From the NCBI GenBank assembly GCA_011033025.1, contig WFMF01000386.1:106994-170993 (forward strand): a stretch of DNA of 64,000 nucleotides, written 5' to 3'. Source of the stretch: Beroe forskalii (lineage: Eukaryota > Ctenophora > Nuda > Beroida > Beroidae). The notes under the pieces were generated by a model. It saw nothing but the letters and a program-made list of their open reading frames with translations. It searched no databases and was not told where the DNA came from. This document shows positions 4,346 to 63,828 of the stretch, one piece after another; positions within the stretch are counted from its first letter, which is position 1; each line of letters begins with the position of its first letter. The translations under genes were made by a program, and so were the position numbers.

Positions 4346-5064
4346 ATACACCTAAATTTCGCCACCCAGACGGGCTTGATAACTCCATCTGTGTTTCAAT
4401 GTTTATTTATCTAGTCTTAGAGATATAACGCAGACTTGTGGCGCCATATATAGGGTGTATTGCTCCGTTTTATCAAATTCAACTACATTATTTCTGTGCG
4501 CCGTCATTCCTATCTGTCAGTGTTCGTTACTTATTTAAGATCGGGATGAAGATAATGATTATGGCACAAAACTAATATTGTTCAACTGAGGAGTACATAC
4601 ATACATTTTGATTTAGCTGACTACATTCACATGTGATCGTGTTTTTCTTTAAGGGCAGATTCTATACGAGAACCGCATAAGATTGTAGCTCTCGAGTCAG
4701 TTGTTATTAATGTTTGTGGTGTGAATTGTTTTGTTTTCGATTGAGTACTTAACTTTCATGGTTCATTTTTTATGGCAATGAAAGATCAAACAAAATTTTT
4801 GATAAGTACATATACATACACTACGTCATACACTAACAGTATGTATCAATGCTGGGAGCTGGTTGTATCATTTGGACTTTTGAACTTATTCGCTGAATTG
4901 ACTCCGATACGATGATGATGTGACTCTGACTTTTACAAATCACTGGCAAATTTGTCCAAAATTCTCGCCTGTTTCAATTATGAAATAGTGTACCCATTAT
5001 TCATAAAACATTGAGTTCGAATACTTAAGTTTCAAACCGTCTACTTTGATTGATGCGTATATGG

Positions 5065-5345
5065 CAGGGTAATAATACAGTAAATACACACTTGGGTGTG
5101 TAAATTGCCATCGTAATTGCACTCGCAAGCTCGTGCAATTACTCCAATAAATGCACTCGCAAGCTCGTGCATTTATCACATGAATTCCACTCGCAAGCTC
5201 GTGGAATTAATGTGATAATTACACACCCAAGTGTGTATTTACCGTATATAAATGCACTCGCAAGCTCGTGCATTTATTGCATGAATTCCACTCGCAAGCT
5301 CGTGGAATTAATGTGGTAATTACACACCCAAGCGTGTATTTACCG
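5065..5345. repeat. Cloverleaf-like palindromic unit A (CTCGCAAGCTCG loops)
   Basis: An outer inverted pair, TAAATACACACTTGGGTGTG at about 5092 and its complement ending near 5245 and again near 5345, encloses successive hairpins. All share the core CTCGCAAGCTCG. The stems differ but stay complementary within each hairpin: ATTGCA/TGCAAT near 5115-5140, AAATGCA/TGCATTT near 5150-5176, GAATTCCA/TGGAATT near 5182-5208. The set is repeated once more at 5248-5345. A partial relative lies at about 3755-3850. No coding potential. Confidence 0.8.
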
Positions 5346-5545
5346 TATAATATTTACTGTGAAGAGTATTAAAGGTGGACCGAGAAAACAGCGTTTAAAA
5401 GATAATTCAGAACTTCACAAATCAACTGATATCTTTACAATGAGACACTGATGAGACAAACAAGACTATATAGGTAATAGGACACATTGAGGTATTTTGA
5501 GATACTTGTAAGCGTGTTCGTTAACCTAGAAACGAATGGTTCATT
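5340..5545. repeat. Dispersed repeat, inverted copy at 13060-13290
   Basis: The block with CTGATGAGACAAACAAGAC-type sequence and the AATCAACTGATATCTTT stretch matches the complement of about 13130-13285. It is part of a rearranged set of inverted copies around genes 1 and 2. Confidence 0.7.
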
Positions 5546-6448: not shown

Positions 6449-6494
6449 TAATTCTCGAAATGCATGTTTTCACTGTCACTGCTGCACAAAATTT

Positions 6495-6775
6495 ATTACA
6501 TGGCTCATAAGCCCTTATTTGCTACCATATACATCGGGGTATTTCTATATTATAGGGTCGGTCAGATCCTATAACCCCATGTTATGTGGTCGTTACCGAC
6601 CCTATAACCCCGGATTTTCCGGGGTTATAGGGTCGGGAACGAACCTATAACCCTTATATGATAGCAACTCAGTAGTGTCAATCGAATTTGCATAATTTGG
6701 ATGGGACAAACATAGATATGCATTCTGTGGTAATAGAATTTATACATTCCACGATGAACAAAATGTTCAAGGTGA
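6495..6775. repeat. Palindrome-bearing repeat, inverted copy at 12295-12575
   Basis: Contains an internal foldback around CCCCGGATTTTCCGGGG flanked by CCCTATAA/TTATAGGG. The block from TACATGGCTCATAAGCCC to the AACAAAATGTTCAAGG end recurs inverted at 12295-12575. At the second site it abuts the copy of the 3900-4345 repeat directly, so the two repeats are arranged differently in the two places. Confidence 0.75.
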
Positions 6776-6999
6776 CGTCTTTATCAAGATTTACAGCAGT
6801 GGGTTGATGGCAAAATCTGTAATTCTTCCTGCAAGACACACCACCAACGATTTAGCACTAATTTGTTCTGATCCGGGCCGGATGTAAATTTACACATCAA
6901 CCTGTCTGACGGCTGTATGCTACTTGTCAAAGTCTATTTTTTCACGTTATTGCGTATTTTTAGCGCGTTAATTTTGTGGTTTCGCCATGTAATATCACC

Positions 7000-7172
7000 A
7001 TAGGTCTCAGGAGTACCTAATACACATTGTTTTGAACTCGGCTTCGCCTCGTCCAAAACAAACCATTATTGACCTCAGCTTCGCTTCGGCCAATAATGCG
7101 TCTATATATAGTTCGCGCTTCGCGCTCACTACATATATGTGGTATTAGGTTACTCCTTCGACCTATAGTTCT
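7000..7172. repeat. Cloverleaf-like palindromic unit B
   Basis: The outer stem pairs CATAGGTC...AGGAGTACCTAATAC on the left with GTATTAGGTTACTCC...GACCTATAG on the right. Three hairpins lie inside: one with TTGTTTTG/CAAAACAA stems around CTCGGCTTCGCCTCG, one with CATTATTG/CAATAATG stems around CTCAGCTTCGCTTCGG, and one with TATATATAG/CTACATATAT stems around TTCGCGCTTCGCGCTC. The stems are unrelated between hairpins and the loop cores resemble each other. Confidence 0.8.
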
Positions 7173-7214
7173 ATATTACATATATTTATTTAAGCTAGTA
7201 TAGCTAGCTGCTTA

Positions 7215-8483: not shown

Positions 8484-10677
8484 TGAGGTTGTAGTCTTTA
8501 CAAGGGGTTTGCTCGCATTTGAAATAATCCTTGTTGCAGCAATCTTTTGGGGCGGAGAATTTCTGACACTCGTCCACTTTCGACTGGCAGCAGTAGTTGT
8601 GGCCAAAATAGGAATAGGGGTAATTTTCTGGGCATTCCGGCATCCCTTTATCTAAAATTAGATATTAATGTGAATTGCAGGCAATCCGAAACTGTGAATA
8701 TTCTAACAACTTGATCTTCTTCAGTCTTGTGATCCCTACAGTCTTACTCGATCAATCTCTATCACTCGATATAAAACCCGCGAGTGGGCTCATCCGGCAA
8801 AAGGGCCAGTATAGGTAAAAAGCCAAGTTTTTCCTGGTCACAGGCATTTTTTCTTTCTGGTTGGGACGACATTAGTACATTACGACAACAAATATGATAC
8901 ATTAGCTATTTGTAATGGCTCTTCGTACTACGCGTATTACTTTAGTGCTACGACTGTACTTTAGTGCTACTTCAGTTATGTAATACTGAATTGCACTGTA
9001 ATACTGAATCGCACTGTAATACTGCAAATCTCTAAATCTCACCATGTCCTGGTAAACAAAACGTCAGTGGTTCTTCCTCCAACCACCCCAAAGAGTTGAC
9101 AATCGGATCCTCCACAACTCCGTCTACTTCCATGTAAATCTGATGACGAATGCTCGAATGGTAAATTGTGAATGAAATTCCATACAGTACCATAAAATGC
9201 GGTAGAAGTCACCCCTTGCGTTAGAAATCACCCCTTGACCTCCGTAACCAGTAATACAACGTACGGGGAATTTCTTTAAATTTCATGATTCTGGATGCCT
9301 TGGCCTTGAGAAATGATAAATCTGACAAACCAACATTTATGAAATTATTATGAACAATAGGGTATGCTTGGACTTATGAGTACATAAATTCCCAATCGCT
9401 CTGACAAGAATGAAATGCTGATATACTGAATTAAACTCTCATTAATATGAGGCAGAAATCTTTGCTTGGACTTATATACGCTAATCTAACGACGCATAGT
9501 GGTATTGTTGCACTTATTGCACGAGACGAAGCCGAGTGCCAATAAGTGTACTAATCACACGAGGCGAAGCCGAGTGTTGATTAGTACACTAATGTGCAGG
9601 AGGCGTCAGCCGAGTGCATATTAGTGCAACAATATCACTTCTGGGGAGTTAGATTAGCGTATAATACCACGACCAGTGCAATATGCCCTGATATTGCACT
9701 GTGGTTATTTGCACTGGAGTGGTATTATAAGGAAAATATCATAATCTCCCCCCCCAGCTGAATACACATGTAGACCCCTATCCTACCTGTTCAAAGAGCC
9801 AGTCATTACTCCCACTCCCCCTCAGCTGAAGACACATGTAGTCCCCTATCCTACCTGTTCAAAGAGCCAGTCATCACTCCCACTCCCCCTCAGCTGAAGA
9901 CACATGTAGTCCCCTATCCTACCTGTTCAAAGAGCCAGTCATCACTCCACTCCCCCTCAGCTGAAGACACATGTAGTCCCCCTATCCTACCTGTTCAAAG
10001 AGCCAGTCATCACTCCCACTCCCCCTCAGCTGAAGACACATGTAGTCCCCTATCCTACCTGTTCAAAGAGCCAGTCATCACTCCCACTCCCCCTCAGCTG
10101 AAGACACATGTAGTCCCCTATCCTACCTGTTCAAAGAGCCAGTCATCACTCCCACTCCCCCTCAGCTGAAGACACATGTAGTCCCCTATCCTACCTGTTC
10201 AAAGAGCCAGTCATCACTCCCACTCCCCCTCAGCTTAACACACATGTAGTCTCCTATGAAAGCGTCGTCATCTATACTCCACGACTCGTTAGCCCCTCGT
10301 TCCCTGTCGTCATTGAAGAATACATCACAGTAGTGTTCCTCCGTTCGGCCCTTGTCCCCGATTATTGTGTAGAAAATATCATTGTCAGTGCCTGCACCCT
10401 CTATTGCAGCAGTCAGGATTGTCACTTTGTACTTCGCTGAAGAGTGAAGGTTATGTTAGGAAATGTGTCAAGATTATTTGTCACTCCGCTCTTCCAATCA
10501 CACAGTTATACGATTAGAGCACTATTACTTGATTGACAAAATCTCGCGCCATCGGTACTCGATGTTGTCAATAAACTGCAATAAGAACTCTTGCAAACCA
10601 TTTTCAGAGAGCTGAAGAAGGATTGTAACCAGCACCAGCATGCTTTTGTTGATGTGAAACAAACTCCGTGCCCTCAT
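8484..10677 (-). CDS. Secreted PLAT-domain and Cys-rich protein (3' end unresolved)
   Basis: Exons in transcription order: 10599-10677, 10195-10436, 9043-9139, 8484-8645. Intron phases 1, 0 and 1 agree at each junction. Exon 1 encodes a signal peptide (MRARSLFHINKSMLVLVTIL, ending near residue 26). Exon 2 encodes most of a PLAT/LH2 beta-sandwich (about residues 28-107) with GAGTDNDIFYTIIGD, the CDVFFNDDRERG stretch and DDWLFEQ; exon 3 finishes it. Exon 4 is Cys-rich (CPENYPYSYFGHNYCC, then CC and C..C), like small extracellular modules of invertebrate proteins. PLAT domains usually bind lipids or membrane proteins, but the function here is unknown. The last exon ends in phase 1 at a strong GTAAGT donor. 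The following exon was not found; a short terminal exon near 7965-7980 is possible. The donor of exon 2 is repeated in a minisatellite (separate entry). Confidence 0.75.
9475..9664. repeat. Cloverleaf-like palindromic unit C (GGCGAAGCC loops)
   Basis: Outer stem ATACGCTAATCTAAC paired with GTTAGATTAGCGTAT, continued by GTGGTATTGTTGCAC paired with GTGCAACAATATCAC. Three consecutive hairpins fill the interior: 9511-9548 (stem CACTTATTG/CAATAAGTG), 9547-9588 (stem TGTACTAATCA/TGATTAGTACA) and about 9587-9626 (stem CACTAAT/ATTAGTG). All carry a core like ACGAGGCGAAGCCGAGTG. It sits in intron 2 of the PLAT gene, and nothing in it is coding. Confidence 0.85.
9757..10232 (-). repeat. 68-bp minisatellite repeating an exon end with its splice donor
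   Basis: Seven near-identical copies of a ~68-bp unit. Each copy, read on the minus strand, holds the last ~60 nt of PLAT exon 2 (ending GAT GAC TGG CTC TTT GAA CAG) followed by GTAGGATA. The copy at 10195-10255 is the true exon end: it alone continues into GGAGACTACATGTGTGTTAAG. The other six lie in the intron as decoy donors. Reading past the first donor meets TAG at once, and 68 is not a multiple of three, so extra copies cannot be coding. Confidence 0.85.
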
Positions 10678-14962: not shown

Positions 14963-14984
14963 AGTTTCAGAAAAACAACAGCGA

Positions 14985-15895
14985 TATTAAGTGCCCCGGA
15001 CACTCTGCATCCACTTCGCATTTTCTTGCGTAAAAAAGTGAATGCAAATGAGACAAATTTGAGACATCGATTTTTAGGTATAAAAGCGGTATTTTGTGAC
15101 TTCCAATGATACCAAATGGTTTATAGGATAGTTCTAAAGGATGTCCAACCTGTCATGGGTCAGTTTGGTCATTTTGGGCCCAATTATGACCCAAATGGGC
15201 CCAAAAAGGCCCAATTTCCAAATTGCTCCAATCGATCTGGAAACACTTCCAATCGATTTATAAACATTCTCCGAGGTATTTTACAAAGTTCAACGGCCCT
15301 AAATCGATATTAAGTGCCCCAGACACTCTGCATCCACTTCGCATATTCTTGCGTAAGAAGTGGATGCAAATGAGACAAATTTGAGACATTGGGTTTCTGG
15401 TTATAAAAGTGGTATTTTGTGACTTCCAATGATACCAAATGGTTTGTAGGATAGTTCTCAAAGATTTCCAACCTGTCAGGGGCCAATTTAGTCGGTGGTA
15501 TAGCCAAAAAAATCAATGTCTCAAATTTGTCTCATTTGTATCCACTTTTGAACGCGAAAATATGCGAAGTGGATGCAGAGTGTTCGGGGCACTTAATATC
15601 GATTTAGGGCCGTAAAACTTTGTAAAATACCTCGGAGGATGTTTATCAATCGATTGGAAGTGTTTCCAAATCGATTGGAGCAATTTGAAAATTGGGCCTT
15701 TTTGGGCCCATTTGGGTCATAATTGGGCCCAAAATGACCAAACTGGCCCGTGACAGGTTGAACATCCTTTAGAACTATCCTACAAACCATTTGGTATCAT
15801 TGGAAGTCACAAAATACCGCTTTTATACCTAAAAAATCGATGTCTCAAAGTCTCAAATTTGTCTCATTGCATCCACTTTGCATCCACTTTGCATC
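14985..15895. repeat. Foldback element directly after the sulfotransferase
   Basis: A ~330-bp block (ATATTAAGTGCCCC, CTCTGCATCCACTTCGC, a GGTATTTTGTGACTTCCAAT run, GGGCCCAATTATGACCC) at about 14987-15310 is followed by a partial direct copy at 15310-15485 and an inverted copy at about 15500-15870. The same chance peptide is read from the plus strand at 15116 and the minus strand at 15790. It starts within ~25 bp of the stop codon, so it probably lies in the 3' UTR or just beyond. Confidence 0.75.
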
Positions 15896-25800: not shown

Positions 25801-28800
25801 TAGTTTTGTGGGATAGGACATGAGCTGCAGCTGCCACAAAAGAGTCGTGTTTGCCGTGTACCAAGTCAGCATACACCACTCCAGTCTTACCCCCCACTTC
25901 TATACTGAAAGGTAACGTGGTCAACACATTTAGATAGCAAGATGTACCCGGACATGCCCAAATTAGATAACAAGCGTCTCTCAGATCGCAAAGGTGTTTA
26001 GAATGCCCGGGGTAAAATCCAGCGGAATGTTTGTATAGGTGCGTATCTGTGTATTGGATTATCATATTACATGTACATTGTGTAGTGTACATTATTAACT
26101 GACACTGTTATTAGCCGTTATTCCGCACTGAATGGTGTGGAATGGGACTTGGGAGGGTTACCGTAGGAAATAAACAGAGGCGAGACCCATAGCCTTGAAT
26201 ACCTATAGTAGAGGGCACTTTCAGAACCTTTCCATTGCCAACCCTGACAACTTGACAATGACTTTTTAGAAAAGAAAAAAAACATACAGTCGATTGGGGA
26301 GGAGAAAATCTGAGAGTCAGACTATATTCTGAACAGAGCTTTCTAGGTGGGTGTCTACACCGACTTTGACAGTGAGGGTCTGTGTTTGTTGTCGAGGACT
26401 CTGCACTGTTACGTCGTGTACTAGGACTGAGGGGTGGTCGAGGGAGGCGAATACCACCTCCTTGACAACGATACAACCCTCCCCTACGTAGTAGAGATCC
26501 ACCTGGAGGAGAGGGTTATAGAGTCAGGAAGTAATAAATAAATAAATAAATTAAAACATTTATTCCACGCTTAGACATTGTTGGACAAATATCTGTGAGG
26601 GAAATATCCTAGCCATTCAAGCGTGACCAAAAAAGATGCCAACAATCTAGGAGAGCTTAAAACTTGGATAACAAATAAGTGGCACTAGAAATCTTAGCAC
26701 TTAATAACAAAAGTGTACCAAAGAATGGGAACAATTACTTAACAATTGGGAACCCCTTCAAATGCTTTCTCAAAATAATATGTTTTAATGCCCTTTAAAT
26801 TCATCAATATTAGACATACATCTTAAATCATAAGGTAAATTATTCCACAATCTCGGTCCATAATGATTGAAAGCAGTTTGTGTTTTTGGGATATTAGGTG
26901 GGCTTGGAGTTTTCAGGATAAAGAAATCATCATCAAGACGTAAACTTATTCGTTTAGTGTCTCTGAGGGAGATAAGATCTTTGAGGTATTTTGGTGCCAT
27001 GTTATTGATACACTTGAAAACAAGAAGGGCAATCTTGAACTGTATTCTAAAATTCACAGGTAGAAAATGTAGCTTCTTCAGATAAGGACTTATAGAACAC
27101 CACTTCTTTTTCCCATATAGCTTGAAAATGAATCGAACAGCATTATTTTCAATCTTCTGTAGCTTTTGAAGGTTCTTCTCAGTTACTGAAGCATATGAAG
27201 AATTGCAATAGTCAATCACCGACAGTATGTTTGAATGTACTAATTGAACTTTGAGCTCATGAGTCAGTCTAGAGCCAATTCTTTTCAGATTCCTCAGGTT
27301 CAAATAACAGACTTGGGTGATGTGTTTGATTTGGTCCTCCATACTGAGTCGATGATCAAAGTAAAAGCCCAAGTTCTTTGTGGCCAATACTGGGCTGACA
27401 GATATTTCAGTTGCAGCGCCACCAAGATCTAAACTTTCAATGGGACTAATGTAATGACCTATATCCACAAATTCTGTCTTATCTTCATTCAGTTTCAGGA
27501 AATTACATGTCATCCATATCTTGATTTCACTAAAGCATTTCTTAATGGCAGAGAGATCAGGAGTTGGACAATGAACATCAAAGGAGAAGTATATTTGAGT
27601 GTCATCTGCATACAAATGCACTGAGAACCCATATTTAGATATTATTTCCTCCAAATCTTTTGTGTACAAGATGAATAGAAGTGGACCCAAAATAGATCCT
27701 TGTGGGACTCCTATTTCAAGAAATGCTTCTTGAGATGAGGCTTCATTGACCTTGACCTTGAATTTTCTTTCAGATAAATATGTTTTAATCCAACTCATCA
27801 CAAGACCAGAGATACCATATTTAATTTTCAGCTTTTTCAATAACAATGAATGGTTGATGGTGTCAAATGCTGCACTGAGATCAAGAAGCAGAAGAACAAC
27901 ATTTTCTTTCTTATCTATCATCATCATCAAGTCAGTTTGAATTTTCAAGACTGCTGTCTCACAGAGGTATATAGTGTGAGGTAGTCTAGTGGTCAACACT
28001 CTAGACTATCAAGGGGATCAAGCAGTCAGGAGTTTTCGTGGTCGTAGAAATCTGAATCAAACTCTAGTCAAAAAATCGGACTTTAGCAATTCTTAATTTT
28101 AGGGCAAATTTGCATATTTACATAAGTACATAAATTTTGCAATTAACTTTGAATTATTGAAGTTGTTGTTTTTACATCTAGGTTCCGTTTCGGTATAAAG
28201 CTCCAGGGGAAATAAGAGATTTGGTCTTTGATTCTGTTTTCAATTATTTGAAATGTACTATGTACTATGTACTACCTTATACCTACATGATACATTTCAC
28301 ACTGAAACACTGTGGCAGTGTAGGTAAGTGTAATTAATTAATACCACCTCGATTCTAGGACATTTGTCCGCCACGGACATTTGTCCGACACCTGAAATTA
28401 GCTATTCGGACAAATATCCGTGTCGGACAACTGTCCGAATTCGGACATTTGTCCGAAAGTCAGACACAATTTTATTCCAAAGTAAAGGGGAACTACTGTG
28501 TTTACATTTGATGATTATACGGCAAGGTTCCCCGATTGATGTAGGTACAAAATCATGTGATGCGACCCAAGTCGTAGGTTTGACATCAGCCCATCACGGA
28601 TAGCCGATAGGGTGATGGCACCCGATACTGACGAGATTGGACGAGATGGGATGTTCTCATGTAATGTGATGCGAGACGATGTCGTATGCTACGCCATGCA
28701 GGGCAATGACACCACTTAAACATCTTAAACATGGGCTCTTCCCCGACACCCTCCATCTCCCCCTCTTCTACGGGCTTATTCCTGGAAAGACCACCACCCT

Positions 28801-30638
28801 CAACAGAAACCTCTTCGAAGAAGTCGACACCTGGGGTTCCTACCAACCCCCCTCCATCCTCATGGACTACGAGCTTGCAATCCACAACGCTGTTGCTGAT
28901 GTGTGGCCCTCTACCACCAGGCGGGGATGCAACTTTCACTGCAAACAGTCCCTCTTCAAGCATCTTCGTCAGGCTGACCTCAAGCCCCTGCTCCCAACAG
29001 ACATGGCGACCTTCACCTCCTACTTCGAATCCACCTGGATTGGGACCTCCACCACACCTCCAACATTCAGCCACGACATGTGGAACCAGCACGACGCTCC
29101 TCCAACATCGCAGAAGGCTGGCACCACGGCTTCCACTCCATGCTGTCATGCTTCAACCCCACTCTCTGGAAGTTCCTGGACGCCCTGAAAGCAGAGCAGG
29201 CACTCACAGACCTCAAGCTCACCAGGAGACAGCTGCGTCAACCACCTGAACCCAGAGCCGCCAAGTGGGTCAGATACGATCAGAGGCTGCAGAAGGTCGT
29301 TGAGGACTATGATTCTTACACTGATGTTTTGGATTTTTTGGAAGCAGTTGGTAGCATGTCTATGTTGAAGTAATTTGATTATATTTTGAGTGCTAATAAT
29401 ACTATACATTATCTTAGTGTGAAACATGCTGATTATACAGTACTTTATTCTATAAACATTGATTACCTCATTAACTCTGTGTCTTATTCGGACAAATGTC
29501 CGTGTCGGACAAGTGAAAGGCTCCTCTCAATTATTTACCAATAAGTTTGAAGAAATTGTTGTGGGATTTTCGGACAAATGTCCGTGTCGGACAAATGTCC
29601 GCAAAATTTCGTACTGGGTTTCGGACAACTGTCCGTGTCGGACAAATGTCCGTGTCGGACAAATGTCCGACTACCTACCACCTCATTGTGTACACCTGTT
29701 TATACTTTCAATTTTGTGTGATTTTATTAACTTTCATTGTTATTTATTTCATTGAGTATAATGCCACTTTAGTTAGAACATTGGACTATTAAACTGTTGG
29801 AGAATGAGTGTTTGGTAGCAGTCAGCTGGGAAAGCGTATACTTTTTTATTTCTGAATTATGGCTCTTTAATCTCCCGCTAGGATCGGAGTGATGCTGGTT
29901 TATTTCACTAACCTGGCCCTTCTTCATGTGCAGTACAGAGAGTGCTAGTGTCAGCACCGAGTCTTGCAGGTAGTACTTCAGGTTAATGTTGTGGCCCAGA
30001 TCCAAATAGTGGGCATCTGGGGATGTTAGTCGGTTATTCAAATTGTTGACAGGAACTCAAAACCGGACAAAACAGGTTATAAGCATTCAGTAGAGATACA
30101 CGCTAGTACTTTAGTATGGCATTACTTTCTAGGAGGACGAAGTGGCTGCCGGAGAGGGGGTTCGTAGCCACGAAGCCATTGGCTGTCAGGAACATCCAAT
30201 CAGGAGTCTTAGTTCCGACGTTGACGATCACGTCCAGGTCCCCTGCCAGATGCTCTATTTCCGCTCTGTAGCCGTACAAACAGGGCGGGAAGTTCTTAAC
30301 CCTGCCAAGATCTGCTGGGCTCTCCTGCAAATGCTGGTTCAAGGTGTTGTAAAATTCACATGATTCCTGTTGTCATAGCACTAGCTAAGTAGGTCAAACA
30401 AACCCCAATAAAGTACCGGAAAAAAGGTGCTTAATCGAGGGTACCATTCTTGAAAAAAAAGCATAAAATGTCGAGAGAATGGTATGACGCAGGGGCACAC
30501 TCAACTTACCGGCTCTGCTTTGAAAGACAGGCTCCTGAAGTAGATGAAGAGGAAGAAACATATGGCAACCCCTATAACCACCCTCCTGGTTCTGCTGGAA
30601 GACACGATCATGTCCACCCGAAACGGTAGACTGGGCAT
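19876..30638 (-). CDS. KIAA2013 homologue, membrane glycoprotein of unknown function
   Basis: Twelve exons: 30510-30638, 30126-30366, 29913-30016, 26323-26502, 26203-26261, 25790-25904, 24547-24706, 24156-24313, 23462-23617, 20775-20906, 20317-20501, 19876-20047. The phases agree at every junction and give 596 residues (human protein about 634). There is a signal-anchor-like segment at about residues 20-35 and a C-terminal membrane segment at about 560-580 followed by a short tail. Human-like blocks include VNLTMYYLL (exon 8), CFKG....H...LW continuing ungapped across the exon 8/9 junction into LLISGGC, GIEFQDTLINL (exon 10), LYACDQICKD and ATPILYVAL (exon 11), and LLFHMVYKEFC (exon 12). The start of exon 5 could instead be 26243. 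The exon 4 donor (ATA|GTCTGA) is weak and was chosen by phase. The lumenal protein has no assigned biochemical role. Intron 3 holds a LINE and a MULE; intron 6 and the exon 7 start carry a minisatellite. Confidence 0.9.
20990..21370. repeat. Diverged GGTACCATTT iterations in intron 10
   Basis: A run of ~45-65-bp imperfect units, each with GGTACCATTT followed by A-rich sequence and CAAAAATC. Several short minus-strand ORFs here come from the iteration. The remaining intron 10 sequence to 23461 shows only the palindrome at 22380. Confidence 0.55.
22380..22393. promoter_or_regulatory. Perfect X-box-like palindrome GTTACCATGGTAAC
   Basis: A 14-bp perfect palindrome matching the RFX X-box pattern (GTTRCC-GGYAAC with no spacer offset), followed by a second half site CATGGTAAC. 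It sits in intron 10 of the KIAA2013 gene. Binding is inference only. Confidence 0.35.
24700..25590 (-). repeat. 57-bp minisatellite repeating a splice acceptor and exon start
   Basis: About 16 copies. Read on the minus strand, each 57-bp unit contains a pyrimidine stretch, CCCACAG, GCTGGTGAGCAAGG, then GCAGACTGCAG followed by CTGCTCGTGTCTCTGACA, the first 18 nt of KIAA2013 exon 7. The true exon start is at 24706, where the frame runs on into TCTGAGAAGCTGCCAGAG. Most units are in register and translate as SDIPQAGEQGRLQLLVSLT (19 residues). A few units are shortened, for example near 24920, 25180 and 25310, and these break the frame. The long ORFs on both strands are by-products. Confidence 0.85.
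26525..28010 (-). mobile_element. 5'-truncated CR1/L2-type LINE with reverse transcriptase
   Basis: In intron 3 of the KIAA2013 gene, on the same strand. The reading frame 27999-26785 encodes reverse transcriptase from CETAVLKIQTDL onward: LDLSAAFDTINH, GVPQGSILGPLLFILY, the catalytic HLYADDTQIY, then the C-terminal HFLPVNFRIQFKIALLVFK and LWNNLPYDLR blocks usual in CR1/L2 elements. The frame ends at EFKGH*. One base fewer would continue into KTYYFEKAF, so there is a 1-bp frameshift near the C-terminus. No endonuclease or ORF1 is present, hence strong 5' truncation. The 3' end carries an (ATTT)n-like tail at about 26530-26555. Probably inactive. Confidence 0.85.
28351..29676 (+). mobile_element. 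Mutator-like (MULE) DNA transposon, partial, 8-bp TSD
   Basis: Flanked by the perfect repeat ACCACCTC at 28343-28350 and 29677-29684. Both ends carry CGGACAAATGTCCG-type palindromes (three to four copies left, six or so right). The interior (about 28680-29373, plus strand, opposite to the host gene) encodes the C-terminal half of a MULE transposase: PLFYGLIPGKTTTLNRNLF, SILMDYELAIHNAVADVWP, GCNFHCKQSLFKHL, then after a frame change near 29040 SNIAEGWHHGFHSMLSCF and LWKFLDALKAEQAL. The N-terminal half is missing. The 8-9-bp duplication is normal for MULEs. Inactive relic in intron 3 of KIAA2013. Confidence 0.85.
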
Positions 30639-54847: not shown

Positions 54848-55956
54848 ACCCCAACTAGTCGGTACATACCGCGGTACGCACACAATGCGTCATGAACATG
54901 TCCCCTAACTAGTTGGTACATACCGCGATGCGTACACGGTATGTACCCGATTAGTTAGAACATGTTCCGCGGTACATACCCCGGAACAAATCCTAACTAG
55001 TCGGTGCATACCGCGGCATTACCGCCTCTGCGCGCGCATTTATTCCCCAAATTTCTTGCGATAAAGAGGTGAAGCTTGCAACAAACGAAGGTCAATGATC
55101 AAGGTAATTGAAGCAAATCACTAGGTATTTTACAACATCAAGAGCCACCAGAGTCAAACTCCGATCTTCCAGAATCAAGGCAAACATAGTGAAGGCAACA
55201 AGAGTCAAGGCAACAAGAGTCAAGGCAACCAGTATAATGCAACCTGAGTCAGTGAGTCAAGGCAACCAGAGAGACAGAGCAAACAACGGATAACATAGCA
55301 GCATCAAGGAAATGGTGTCTGCAGATGAGATGGGTGTTGACCCCTGCTTGGTCCTGTTCACGTGACCTATAGGCCTGGCATGCATAGAGCGAACCAGACA
55401 CCCAATCAACCCCACCAGACAGTTTCAATCTGTCCAACCCCTGCATGCTAGGTATATGGGTCACGTGACCAGTACCCAGCGGGGGTCGGCGCCCATCCTA
55501 TCAGTAGGCATCATTTTCCTTGGTGCTGCTATGCGATCCTTTGTTTTCTCTGACTGTCTTTTCCTTGACTCACTGACTCAGGTTGCCTTGACTCTTGTTG
55601 CCTTGACTCTGTTTGCCTTGATTCTAGAAGATCGGAGTTTGACTCTGGTGACTTTGACTCTTGATGATGTAAAAAACCTAGTGGTTTGCTTTAATTGCCT
55701 TGATCATTGACCTTTGTTTGTTGCAATCTTCACCTCTTTATCGCAAGAAATTTGGGAATAAATGCGCGCGCAGAGGCGGTACGTACCGCGGTATGTACCG
55801 ACTAGTTAGGATTTGTTCCGGGGTATGTACCGCGGAACATGTTCTAACTAATCGGTACATACCGTGGTACGTACCGCGGTATGTACCGACTAGTTAGGAC
55901 ATGTTCCGCGGTACGTACCGTGGTACGTACCGCGGTATGTACCGACTAGTTGGGGT
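54848..55956. mobile_element. Foldback element with GTACCGCGGTAC palindromes
   Basis: Ends ACCCCAACTAGTCGGTACAT and its complement, flanked by CTAAG (54843-54847, 55957-55961). The arms are long (about 450 bp each) and consist of repeated CTAACTAGTCGGTACATACC and CGCGGTAC units, then an AGTCAAGGCAAC microrepeat. About 200 bp of loop lies near 55300-55460. It is inserted in the 3' part of the LTR element. No transposase. Confidence 0.85.
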
Positions 55957-55997: not shown

Positions 55998-58900
55998 TCA
56001 CCCAGGGATTATCCCCAATCTCTCTGGTGGTTTTGATACTCTCCCAGAACATGTTATTTGCTGATTTTGGTCCATGGATAGCTGTTGCTGTGGCACTGAA
56101 GATGAAGGGTTACTAAACACATTTGCTGTGAATTGCCTTCGGTCTATTTGCAAATTGGGAGTAACTGACTGACTGATTTTTGGCTGGTGCACTTGGACTC
56201 TAGATGTCATGTTCTGCTCAGGTGTATCATTAGGACTCCTGGGCGAATGGTCCAGTGTTAACTGAGCATCCTTCTTGTCAAGGGCAGGTTTCAGTAGATC
56301 ATGGTGCACTATTTTTGTTTTACCAGAGGCTATTTCGCAAATACCCCAGTTGACTGGGCCAATTTTCTTGCATATCTTATACGGCCCCACCCAGAATGGA
56401 TTCATTTTGGGATATGATCCATGAGTACATTTGAGTAGAACCAGGTCCCCTGCATTGTATTCAATGACCTTTGTGGTTTTATTTGCTTGGCCCTGATAAT
56501 TTAACCTTGCTTCTATTTTGTTTGCAATAACATTTTCTCTGAGGGCTTCTCTGTCCAATGGAGTGCCACTACCATCCACCCCCAGTTTATTGTCCGTAAC
56601 AGTATTGGCGGAAATACCATGGGCTATCTGAAAGGGAGAAGCTTTCAGGGAGCTATTTGTAGCATTGTTGCAAAGTAGTACTGCCTCTGGTAATATTTTG
56701 TCCCAAGACTGAATAGGAATGCGTCTGGACAGACACATGCTTCTGAGTACCGTTTTAAGTGTCTGTATTGCCCTTTCTGCACTGCCGTTCCCAGCAGGGT
56801 GGTAGCTAGAAGATCTGAGTTTCTTTATGGCAAGCCTTTCACATAAATTTCTGACTGCAGCACCATCAACATTATTAGCTTGGTCTGATTGAAGGAATTT
56901 AGGATAACCATAGTGGCTAAACCAGTGGGTTTGTAGCCCTTTGACAATACTATTGCCTGTGCTATCTGGCATAGCACACCCAACCATTAGCTTGCTGAAA
57001 TTGTCTGCAATTAGTAATATCCATACATTTCCATCTTCGGAAATGGGCATACTGGCGAGATCCATAGATATCATTTCAAAGAGCTTGTCAATCTCCTTGT
57101 GATTTTGTACTGGAGCTTTTGGTGGTATTCCATATTTACATTGTGAACAGGTTCTACAACTGAGAACAAATTCCTCAATTTCTTTCCTCATTCCTGGCCA
57201 GTAAAACCGTGAGGCTATTGTTAATATGGAATTCTCCACTCCTTGGTGACTTTGCCCATGGTATTCTCTGATCACAAACTGGGTTATTGTTTTGGGTACA
57301 ATCACCCGTGTTCCTTTGCATACCATGCCTGAGTCAGCCAGGCATAAGTTTTTGAATCCCCTGAATGGAGGTATGTCGACTGCTTCTCCATTCATAAGGT
57401 TTTCTCTCACCTTGGAGATTGTGGGGTCTTTTTTTGTGTTTCAAGAATGATATTAACCATATCCTCACTTATGGTGGCATAAATAACAGGATTTTCTAAT
57501 GCTTGATCTGATCCTGGAATTCTACTTAGGTAATCTGCCTCGATATTATCAGATCCTTTCAGATACTTTATAGAATAGTCTAGGTTTTCCAGTTCAGTTA
57601 TCCATCGAGCAATTTTTCCCCTAGGATCTTTCTGGCTTCTGATACCACGCAGGGGTTCATGGTCTGAGTAGAAAGTGATTTTGTTATAACAGTAGGTTTT
57701 CCATTTCCTGCTTGCACTCACTATAGCATACAGCTCTCTTTCTGTAGCATTCCAGTTTTTGGCTGTGTTTGATAGCGTTTCTGGATGGTAACCAATGGGT
57801 CTGAATGAGCCATCATTGGCAAATTGCCCTAATACACTTCCAACTGCTAGTTTCGAGGCATCAGTTCTGATGACAAATGCCTTTGACCAATCAGGCAAGA
57901 AATTTGCTAGGGATTGATGGAACGCTTCACGGAGCTTTTCGAAGGCTTTTTGTTCAACCTTTGTCCAATAAAAGGCCACCTTAGAGGACGTTAGCCTGTT
58001 AAGGGGGATGCACAGGTTGGAGTATCCCTGTATGAATCTCCTATTATAATTAGCAATTCCCAAAAAGGCCTGGACCTTTTTCCTCGAATTAGGCACTGGG
58101 AACTCAAGGATTTTCGCAATATTGGCAGGTGCTGGTTTAATGGTCTCTCCATTGACGACAAATCCCAGAAACTCCATGCTAGAGAATGCTATCTCACATT
58201 TGTCTTTCCTCAAAGACATTTCCGCTTCATCCAATACTTCTAGCAAGATTGTAAGGTCATGGATATGGTCCACAAATGTTCTTGACCTCACGATACAATT
58301 GACAACATAAGCATCAACTCCATTGGCCCCCCTTTTCTTGCATTCCTCTATGAGCATGTCCATATTGCGTTGAAAGGTAGCCTGTGCATTTTTCAAGCCA
58401 AAGGGCATTCTCAGGAAGTGATGCTTCCCTCTGGGAACACTGAACGCAGTCTTTTGCTTATCTTTTTCCTCTATTGGAACCCCCCAGTATCCACTAGCCA
58501 AATCCAGCTGTGTAAAGAAAGAACATCCTTCACATTGGTCCAACATTTCTTCAATATTGGGCAGTGGGTATGAGTCGGCTACCATTGTTTTGTTGAGGTT
58601 TCTGAAGTCGATAACAAATCGTTTTGAGTTATCTTTCTTGTTAACAAGTAAAGGGTTACTGTTGAATGGAGAGTTTGATGGTTCGATGATTTTGTTTTCA
58701 AGCATTTCGGTTACTTGCTTTTCGACATCATCTTTCCACTTGTCTGGGATTCTCCTTGTTTTGTCTCTTACTATTGCAGAGTCTTTACTGTTTATCCTGT
58801 GTCTAACAGTAGTGCAGGCCCTTGGGGCTCTGGGGTTGGCTGAGAACACATAAGGAAATCTGGCTAAGATTACGTTTACCTTATCTTTCTGATCCTGTGT

Positions 58901-59302
58901 TAAGGTAGGGTTGACTTTCACCTTGTCGTCTTTCTCAACAAGGAAGAGCCATTTGTCTCCGAGTTTTATTCTGTGTTCCTGCCAGTTGAACTCTGTAGAC
59001 GTAAATTGCTCAAGGAAATCTTTACCCAGGATTACCAGGTTATCTATTCTGTCTAAGTTTGCACTGCGGAGGTCGACCTCGTATTCCTGCTCTGGGTCAC
59101 ATGAGAATTTGATTGTGTAAGTCAGCTTAGGTCCTACACTGAGGCTTCCTCCAATGCCTTGTACAGACCCTCCTGTGACTGGATTTTTGGCAGAAGACTC
59201 ATCAGTTTTGACGGCCACAATTGAAACATCGGCTCCAGTATCAATCAGGAAGTTCGAGGAAAACAAGAAAATGAGGAAAACAAGAAAATTTATTTTACAC
59301 AA
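55998..59302 (-). CDS. pol region of the gypsy-type fossil
   Basis: Parts in order on the minus strand: aspartic protease near 59250 (LIDTGADVSIV); reverse transcriptase about 58800-58100 (VIDFRNLNK, LDLASGYWGVPI, MPFGLKNAQATFQR); RNase H about 57870-57550 (TDASKLAVGSVLG); integrase about 57310-56000 with the H2C2 zinc finger (HGQSHQG ... CRTCSQC) and the catalytic core with SDQANN and the NGSAERAIQTLK block; then a basic C-terminal part. The reading frames are long. Ancient-virus-like element: listed as a fossil only. Confidence 0.85.
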
Positions 59303-59512
59303 ACAAAATAAATATAAATATTAATTGTCAGAGATAAAGATGATTCCAAAAAACTCAGGTGGTAAAGGATTTGAGTGGTAATGCTGAAAATTGTTCTCTG
59401 TGAAGCTGTTCTAAAAATTGGTCATTTTTGAAACTTGAAATTTAGTTTAGCACATGCTTAACTGAGCTCAATTGTTTGCATGGAACTGATTGAGTATGGG
59501 AATTCACTTTAA

Positions 59513-62638: not shown

Positions 62639-63553
62639 TCATCCTGCATTTTGGCTGTATCCAGGGTCTTTACGTGGCTTTTTCGATTTGAACCAAGCTG
62701 ATGAACATCCTTCTGCATCGTGACCCTTGCCCCCACAGTTTTGACAGATTCTTTGATAGCAGGACATCTCAGAGTGCCCACTTTTAGAGCAAATTCCACA
62801 TTTAATAACACTCTTTGTCTTTCCTCTGTTAGCACTTTTGAAGTTTCTTTTTTCATTAAAGGCTAGTACTTCCCCTTCCTCATTAACTGCTTTATTAAAC
62901 TGTACTTCCTCACTTGCTTGGCCAATGAATGACTGAATTTCTTCTATGCTTCTTTGCATTGTTTTGGCCCAACCTGGGATGTTTTCATCTTGTTGGGCTG
63001 TAAATACAAATTGCTCCTCTTCTTTGACCAGGGGGCTTGCTTTCCTCTTGTCTCCAACTTTCTTTTCGATCTTTTTGAGGGTATCTCGAAACCATTCTCC
63101 CATGTCAGTGTCTGTCATTTCCCTTCTGATAGAGTCTCTTCGCTCTATGAACAGCTTTTTGCCCCCCGGAATCACTGACAAAAATCTTTTCAAGCATACC
63201 TCCGAATCAATTTCAGCTCGGTCAGCAACATACCATAGTTCAAAGAAAAATGATCTTATCCCATCAATCCTATGATCCTTTGGAACAAGACTGAAGAATT
63301 TTTGACATTCTGAAATCACACAAGGCTTGCCATCAATAATCTCTTCGAGGTATTTAAAAGCATCATCAATGGTTTTTTTACTAGATGCTGTGAAGGCAAG
63401 TTGCTTCTCCCCCTCAGTTCGGTGGATGTAAATAGGAAGGCAGGCAAGTTGTTGAGGAGCAGTCAGAGCTGCGGCAGAGGCAACATAAATTCTTTTGAAC
63501 TCTGCGATCTTTTGTCCCTTAGCCAGATGGGGAATTTCAATAGAGGATATCAT
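62639..63553 (-). CDS. gag region of the gypsy-type fossil
   Basis: Starts 13 bp inside the 5' LTR. The frame is about 305 residues with a long helical capsid-like part and, at the C-terminal end, two CCHC zinc knuckles (CGICSKSGHSEMSC and CQNCGGKGHDAEGC) that bind RNA in this family. Listed as a fossil only. Confidence 0.8.
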   Translation of the reverse strand: MISSIEIPHLAKGQKIAEFKRIYVASAAALTAPQQLACLPIYIHRTEGEKQLAFTASSKKTIDDAFKYLEEIIDGKPCVISECQKFFSLVPKDHRIDGIRSFFFELWYVADRAEIDSEVCLKRFLSVIPGGKKLFIERRDSIRREMTDTDMGEWFRDTLKKIEKKVGDKRKASPLVKEEEQFVFTAQQDENIPGWAKTMQRSIEEIQSFIGQASEEVQFNKAVNEEGEVLAFNEKRNFKSANRGKTKSVIKCGICSKSGHSEMSCYQRICQNCGGKGHDAEGCSSAWFKSKKPRKDPGYSQNAG

Positions 63554-63565
63554 TTGAGGAAGTAA

Positions 63566-63828
63566 TGTAAGCCTCTACTTGGGATCGATAGGTAAGCAAT
63601 AAAGCAACCAGTTGAATATAAAATATAAACCAATCCAAAGTATAGGTAGGTAGATCACAATCCTGAATACGAGTACTTCCTAGAAGGGTAAAGGTGAATA
63701 TTCTATAATCAGTAATGAAGTTAATAGAATAATTCAAGTCAATGGTCAAGAGGATCTTATCGAAATAATATACCTAGAGAGAATCATAAATCAATCAAAG
63801 AATAAGAGAGACCCAAGTGGGTCTGACA
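63566..63828 (-). repeat. 5' LTR of the gypsy-type element
   Basis: 263 bp, almost identical to 54421-54683. Flanked outside by GTTG. The remaining 63833-64000 shows nothing further. Confidence 0.9.

Follow-up and report, generated by a model that had tools for sequence, protein, structure and literature searches.

We find that a palindromic cloverleaf in the genome of the ctenophore Beroe forskalii is the left module of a repeat of about 251 bp (A1), that its architecture, three hairpins enclosed by an outer stem, appears to recur in other repeat families of the same genome, and that the hairpin tip which these families share is a structural grammar and not a fixed sequence. A1 is almost certainly a mobile repeat. 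Selection probably acts on the fold formed by one strand, we lean towards that fold acting as DNA rather than as RNA, and we regard as evenly balanced the proposal that these elements are non-autonomous transposons whose multiplication passes through a single DNA strand in folded form. MITE-like elements as such are known; a module of three hairpins whose covarying, DNA-type tip is common to many families would be a variant unreported in the open-access literature that we searched.

A sequence-only reading of the window (the whole stretch of 64,000 nucleotides analysed here) had described a cloverleaf at 9475-9664. The three adjacent hairpins inside an outer stem were confirmed, and each stem is indeed complementary to its own partner, as is also the case in family P (Table 1). 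The structure is real, but the extent given for it covers only the left module: because the adjoining palindrome accompanies it in nearly all copies, the A1 unit runs further to the right. Likewise, the claim that one loop motif serves all three hairpins holds for hairpins 1 and 2, which have a GAA loop, but not for hairpin 3, which has a GTCA tetraloop. The stems had also been called unrelated, whereas CACTTATTG-CAC, TACTAATCA-CAC and CACTAATGTG-CAC look by eye like diverged versions of one arm; the three stems probably come from one hairpin, an ancestry that the earlier reading had counted against itself. Two points of decay mark the copy in the window, namely GAGAC in hairpin 1 (one base off the GGC of the family) and CAGGAGG in hairpin 3 in place of the family's CACGAGG. 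The element begins with TACGC... and ends with ...GTGGTATTA. Each module has an inverted repeat of its own, and by eye the outer ends of whole A1, B, C and E elements are mismatched; in the single-module family H the element ends do match each other. A 68-bp tandem repeat (9749-10257; 7.5 copies, 97% matches) begins 20 bases past A1.

Table 1. Positions within the window of the A1 element, its parts and the elements of families E and P.
Feature	Positions	Strand	Sequence and remarks	Basis
Whole A1 element	9477..9727	+	left cloverleaf module and right palindrome	both parts in 39 of 42 copies
TA target duplication, left copy	9475..9476	.		flank comparison; empty versus filled site
TA target duplication, right copy	9728..9729	.		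TA in 34 of 39 copies with the right module, by reading
Outer stem, left arm	9475..9490	+	TATACGCTAATCTAAC; pairs with 9648-9663	sequence and RNA fold
Outer stem, inner continuation, left	9500..9510	+	pairs with 9627-9637	sequence, RNA fold and copy alignment
A1 hairpin 1	9511..9548	+	stem CACTTATTG; tip CAC-GA-GAC-GAA-GCC-GA-GTG	family has GGC for GAC
A1 hairpin 2	9549..9586	+	stem TACTAATCA; tip CAC-GA-GGC-GAA-GCC-GA-GTG	by reading
A1 hairpin 3	9587..9626	+	stem CACTAATGTG; tip GA-GGC-GTCA-GCC-GA, tetraloop	sequence and copies
Outer stem, inner continuation, right	9627..9637	+	pairs with 9500-9510	sequence, RNA fold and copy alignment
Outer stem, right arm	9648..9663	+	GTTAGATTAGCGTATA; pairs with 9475-9490	sequence and RNA fold
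A1 right module	9662..9727	+	inverted repeat TAATACCAC...GTGGTATTA	sequence and flanks of copies
Family E element	6494..7178	-	about 685 bp; outer stem; tips GCGC-GAA-GCGC, AGC-GAA-GCT and GGC-GAA-GCC; long right module TATTACATGG...CCATGTAATA	
Family P element	5073..5350	-	outer stem; hairpin stems TTAATTCCAC, ATAAATGCAC and AGTAATTGCAC; all tips GA-GCTTGC-GA	plan by reading

The genome assembly (216 Mb in 1134 contigs) contains at least 41 places, among them the one in the window, that match the 190-base query at 92-100% (best 40 of 343 candidates scored). We read 42 copies of A1, that is, 41 besides the one in the window. By reading, 39 of the 42 have the right module in one of two variants, one lacks it (L122), and two have a different right module (L063 and L123); a TA lies 3' of the module in 34 of these 39. 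A copy of A1 nested in a family B element shows the target site in both states: the sequence gcgctaaTAgaaatt is uninterrupted in one family B element (L013) and filled in another place (L113), where the insertion splits gcgctaa-TA-gaaatt. From the copy number, the short size, the TA on both sides and this empty site we therefore take A1 to be a TA-flanked, MITE-like element, too short for a transposase gene. The sequence-only reading knew of no named element class with such a design. In view of the copy number, size and TA flanks that was too strong, although we too found no description of a three-hairpin plan with GA/GA and GNA tips in the open-access literature.

At least eight families (A, B, E, F, G, H, K and P) appear, by reading of their sequences, to have the outer stem with three hairpins, and families C and D have a single hairpin each. 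An 852-bp form related to family E matches over at least 780 bases at at least 39 places (best 40 of 296 candidates), two of which lie head to tail on one contig (C714). Among these best 40 of 296 we found no transposase-bearing relative of E and no insert above about 0.6 kb. The head-to-tail pairs (L125; C714, 387120-388827) had suggested rolling circles, an idea that we dropped, as one copy inserting at the TA that ends another would produce them equally well. In family P the tip CGAGCTTGCGAG sits on three different stems, each complementary to its own partner, so that the pattern of A1 is repeated independently; the P element of the window is partly duplicated as a 101-bp tandem, and a further copy lies elsewhere (L059).

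The exact 14-base tip GAGGCGAAGCCGAG, which has a GAA loop, matches the genome 1142 times (reversed control, 0), and in the sampled places that we read it is carried by several distinct elements. The general order of a tip is the stem, usually a C, GA, an inner stem, the loop, the inner partner, GA, usually a G, and the stem partner; the inner stem has 2-6 pairs and covaries with its partner, and the loop is cGNAg or cGNYAg (gCTTGc in family P). Genome-wide, CGAG-HN-GAA-NN-CGAG had 572 matches compared to 38 for its control, and among 100 of these matches listed, 39 were CC-GG, 28 were AC-GT and 70 had both inner pairs Watson-Crick. All six CC-GG places that were fetched (L134-L139) belong to family G; two of the five AC-GT places (L140-L144) belong to family H, and the remaining three (L140, L141 and L143) are GAGACGAAGTCGAG tips outside long stems, with a common GTTGCA just 3', a separate conserved context. 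Exchanges of single loop bases showed the middle position to be the freest, with 219 genome matches for GBA as opposed to 46 for HAA (first base) and 29 for GAB (last base); among 100 GBA matches listed 81 were GTA, and the matches with a GTA loop are probably mainly one family. The four-base version CGAGGC-GNNA-GCCGAG matched 919 times (control, 0), and among 100 of these matches listed 97 were GNYA and 3 were GNRA.

The GA/GA step was compared with other mismatches in loci that had been sampled through the exact GGC-GAA tip, so that the mismatch, inner-stem and arm-pairing counts from these loci are enriched for that tip. A strict scan of nine 2x2 mismatch types with loops of 3-4 bases gave 70 distinct GA/GA hairpins, 61 of them with G..A loops (37 of 46 after subtraction of the sampled GGC-GAA tip), compared to 2 of 37 for seven other mismatch types; the TT/TT set, which is the AA/AA set read off the opposite strand, had 0 of 12. 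Another strict scan, in which the same hairpin is counted at two loop sizes, gave 63 distinct GA/GA hairpins as against 8 for the next type. In a looser scan of all fetched loci of this genome the difference was only 139 GA/GA to 97 AA/AA. That scan yielded 46 distinct GA/GA hairpins with a G..A loop besides GGC-GAA, with inner stems that include GGC, GCC, AGC, GAC, GC, GCGC, GTGCGC, GGGC, GGCC, GCCC, CAGC, AGCC, GTGCC and GGGTC, and the last pair before the loop was C-G in 43 of the 46. Besides the sampled tip, 55 of 101 GA/GA hairpins had no G..A loop; these are in part decayed tips and in part chance. Exceptions to the grammar are hairpin 2 of B1 (GGAGCAGGCC), hairpin 1 of A2 (loop ATT), hairpin 1 of H (no GA/GA) and the loops AAA and ATA in one copy of K. 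The genome-wide pattern CGAGCGAAGCGAG (563 matches versus 294) was not used, as its reversed control itself overlaps the motif. The exact 19-mer tip also matched one locus among viral contigs and 14 loci in genomes of prokaryotes; these were treated as background, 14 of the 15 being without an adjoining stem by eye; the background includes a Mesorhizobium contig (L048) with an 8-bp stem CGGTTTGC/GCAAACCG beyond an uneven internal loop.

The sequence-only reading had proposed folding the cloverleaf as RNA and as DNA, and in both the fold lies far below that of shuffled sequences. As RNA, 9455-9684 reached -106.5 kcal/mol compared to -56.1 for shuffles (z -12.8) and as DNA -57 compared to -24.1 (z -10.2), with 0 of 200 shuffles as good in either case; the DNA fold of the family P region 5040-5400 had a z of -11.6. 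The best RNA fold of A1 is the cloverleaf, but as DNA the molecule folds best into a rod, with arm 1 paired to arm 3. With one representative per family, DNA folding gave the outer stem with three loops in E, F, G, H and K, that is, in five of the eight three-hairpin families, and a rod in A1, B1 and B2, because the arms of these are similar enough to pair mutually; RNA parameters gave three loops in A1, E, F, H and K and a rod in G, B1 and B2. The opposite strand of 9455-9684 reached -53 as DNA (z -9.5), compared to -57 for the tip strand, so that computed energy by itself fails to distinguish the two strands. The ViennaRNA DNA table that we used is without special-loop terms and its energies are blind to the stability of GNA and GNNA loops, for which reason these tables were dropped as a test of loop stability. 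As the tables give these loops no bonus, the argument for one strand rests on the orientation of the tips and the identity of the loops.

Adjacent tips lay on the same strand in 69 of 69 pairs, 35-47 bases apart and with at most three tips per group; these pairs form 44 distinct groups (tips linked up to 60 bases apart), several of which are copies of one family. By reading, the strand of the tips is the one that reads the left module and then the right module in families A, B, C, E, F and G. A cruciform gives no reason for tips on the same strand, whereas single-stranded DNA or RNA would give one. We think selection on a one-strand fold probable. As to its nature, tetraloops of RNA are usually GNRA, CGAG/CGAG gives sheared GA pairs that are stable in DNA and RNA alike, and the family P loop is of the form gCNNGc, which we take to be another class of stable DNA loop. 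We favour DNA because GNRA loops are nearly lacking and triloops are many. According to published work, DNA mini-hairpins that carry a GNA or GNNA loop closed by at least two G-C pairs are exceptionally stable, GCGAAGC melting at 78 C and being nuclease-resistant (PMC4686876). The tips fit this definition, their loops sitting on at least two G-C pairs, and by sequence they are the published DNA mini-hairpin motif set on a GA/GA step. Both the loops and the G-C closing pairs of d(GCGAAGC) and the GNA/GNNA mini-hairpins are those of our tips, but there the hairpins are laboratory fragments or parts of aptamers, and here they are recurrent genomic mobile DNA.

We think it unlikely that the fold works as RNA, with transcripts of the elements folding, their hairpins acting in protein binding, as small-RNA precursors or in stability, and selection acting on the RNA. 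The orientation of the tips on one strand would fit equally well, the tandem GA pairs would be stable in RNA too, and it is as RNA and not as DNA that the best fold of A1 is the cloverleaf. Against this, the tips carry GNA triloops or tetraloops of the GNYA type (97 GNYA to 3 GNRA among the 100 listed), the opposite of what is usual in RNA; the representative of family G is a rod under RNA parameters; Rfam had 0 matches at the gathering score within the window; and the TA target, the TA on each side and the lack of an A-tail argue against an element copied from RNA.

Pairing of the arms is kept between families and lost within A1. In a set of 147 tips in 50 arm clusters, enriched for the sampled tip and chosen with free arms but required to have a G..A loop and an inner stem that is paired and ends in C, arms paired with their own partners at 7.04 of 10 positions, compared to 4.34 with swapped partners and a maximum of 5.02 in 2000 shuffles; 32 of the 50 clusters had at least seven pairs and 18 had fewer than 7 of 10. 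For covariation we used 20 representative hairpins from 88 tips, a set in which the percentage paired is biased, since we kept hairpins in which at least 6 of 10 arm positions pair and dropped near-duplicates. Two-sided changes filled 66 cells in this set, compared to 21.5 in shuffles, and occurred at 11 of 13 pairs, a number reached by 6 of 500 shuffles; the covariation score was 0.636, as opposed to 0.178 for shuffled and at most 0.154 for slid sequences. Homologous versions of hairpin 1 have the arm CACTTATTG in A1, CAGTTATTG in L063 and, in L029, CATTAATTG, always facing an exact complement, and by eye hairpin 2 differs between B1 and B2 by three two-sided changes in eight pairs and one extra T. 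From these two comparisons, in which family assignment and stem homology were judged by eye, the stems look homologous and altered pair by pair, not swapped for unrelated sequence. In the A2 copies, which are decayed, hairpin 1 has CTGTAATTG or something close to it, opposite partners that resemble CAATTACAG; by eye, L015, L034 and L067 retain 7-8 of 9 pairs.

Within the 42 copies of A1, by contrast, 52 Watson-Crick pairs showed 100 one-sided changes, 12 two-sided changes that are still paired (8 of these 12 being one change common to a subfamily) and 10 that are unpaired; paired bases were changed in 3.3% and other bases in 2.6%. The same count on the rod fold gave 159 one-sided changes and 10 paired and 11 unpaired two-sided ones. 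Because changes within A1 are mostly one-sided, we conclude that copies decay freely once inserted and that pairing was upheld only in those lineages that multiplied. The sequence-only reading had held that retained pairing implies either selection on structure or the rebuilding of one arm from the other, and had set this against independent decay of the stems. Its argument stands between families, in the covariation and in hairpin 1 of the A subfamilies, and fails within A1, where the stems do decay independently.

That rebuilding without selection, in which a folded intermediate or a template switch during replication rewrites one arm from the other by correcting mismatches within the hairpin, accounts for the pairing is in our view improbable. 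Two-sided changes are common between families, as it would predict, and in B2 the right outer arm matches the left almost exactly (one G.T by eye), although that of B1 does not. Such copying would, however, erase the GA/GA mismatches, which are kept across families and invariant in the 20 hairpins (themselves selected by that motif). Moreover, the three differences between B1 and B2 in hairpin 2 fall at separate pairs and not in one block (by eye), and the 12 paired to 100 one-sided changes within A1 argue that no correction follows insertion.

We consider it very improbable that the tip is a site read in double-stranded DNA by a protein, for instance a subterminal site of a transposase, that was duplicated in palindromic elements with the fold being incidental: the 1142 exact tips in several families would agree with such a site, but the inner stem changes together with its partner (CC-GG, AC-GT, GCGC, GTGCGC), and loops that keep G..A while varying most in the middle are not explained by a protein that reads sequence. 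A cruciform extruded from both strands of duplex DNA, with the element working as a four-way junction, would suit the strong inverted repeats and the good computed energy on both strands but is hardly credible, as only one strand bears the GA/GA-GNA tips (69 of 69), the other having TC/TC mismatches.

On the reading that we prefer, multiplication through a folded single strand of DNA, pairing and tips would be selected while the element multiplies, as it passes through folded single-stranded DNA. Most likely the tip-bearing strand would fold when exposed as a single strand, for example on the replication fork; the fold may protect the strand or present it to a trans-acting transposase or repair machinery, after which a transposase from elsewhere in the genome would insert the copy at TA. 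The chemistry fits DNA, as the published mini-hairpins with GNA or GNNA loops closed by two or more G-C pairs are exceptionally stable and nuclease-resistant (PMC4686876). The rod folds of A1, B1 and B2 as DNA count against a single strand, as does the opposite strand folding nearly as well. So does the TA duplication, which is usual for cut-and-paste transposases that act on double strands and need no folded strand. Further points against this reading are the narrow lead of GA/GA in the looser scan and the 55 hairpins there without a G..A loop, the exceptions to the grammar, the 18 clusters with fewer than 7 of 10 pairs, the three AC-GT places outside long stems, and the stability of sheared GA pairs in RNA. 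Why MITEs fold back so well, and how they outpace their transposases in multiplying, are old questions; covariation, strand bias and DNA-type loops would together be direct and testable evidence that a single strand folds during the life of a eukaryotic element, in which the extra-stable DNA hairpins of the laboratory would be used genome-wide in nature. It is doubtful, but worth considering, that a eukaryotic machinery for transposition or replication recognises the folded DNA strand by its structure, three GNA-capped hairpins with flanking GA/GA on an outer stem, and not by sequence; if so, it would be a working eukaryotic counterpart of the structure-recognised single-strand mobility of bacteria, with extra-stable DNA loops reached independently.

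Akin to MITEs with a TA target, A1 is short and flanked by TA, is built of inverted-repeat modules and occurs in numerous near-identical copies; unlike them it has three internal hairpins, a shared structural tip and mismatched outer ends, and a partner transposase was not found in the searches made. For the Angel-type MITEs of fish, amplification through a folded single strand has reportedly been proposed, and the idea is the same as ours; the difference is that here the tips, by their sequence, point to a particular strand and to DNA-type loops. IS200/IS605 and the bacterial REP elements have short hairpins on one strand that are recognised as single-stranded DNA, and in this working principle they would resemble A1. 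IS200/IS605, however, is not known to make a target duplication, as opposed to the TA on both sides of A1, and the Y1 HUH transposase (Y1_Tnp, PF01797) had 0 matches in the genome. Helitrons and Helentron-related elements have terminal hairpins; Helitrons have 5' TC and 3' CTRR ends and insert between A and T, with no duplication known. The likeness lies in the terminal hairpins and in the Rep domain (Helitron_like_N) with 20 matches in the genome, eight of them in open reading frames of more than 1000 aa (up to 2871 aa); A1 differs in its TACGC.../...GTGGTATTA ends, its TA target with TA on both sides and its internal three-hairpin modules.

The window also contains other repeats and mobile DNA. 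Open reading frames of an LTR retroelement (RVT_1, RNase H and integrase zinc-binding domains) lie on the minus strand at 55998-59320 and 62639-63574, the latter being a frame of 311 aa with no Pfam match and, by eye, zinc-knuckle-like motifs. A reverse transcriptase fragment (RVT_1) is at 26785-28005 on the minus strand and a weak MULE transposase domain at 28670-29188 on the plus strand. Large nested inverted repeats, with arms of up to 284 bp (95%), and repeats of the GTTCCGCGGTACATACC type occupy 14982-15849 and 54947-55926.
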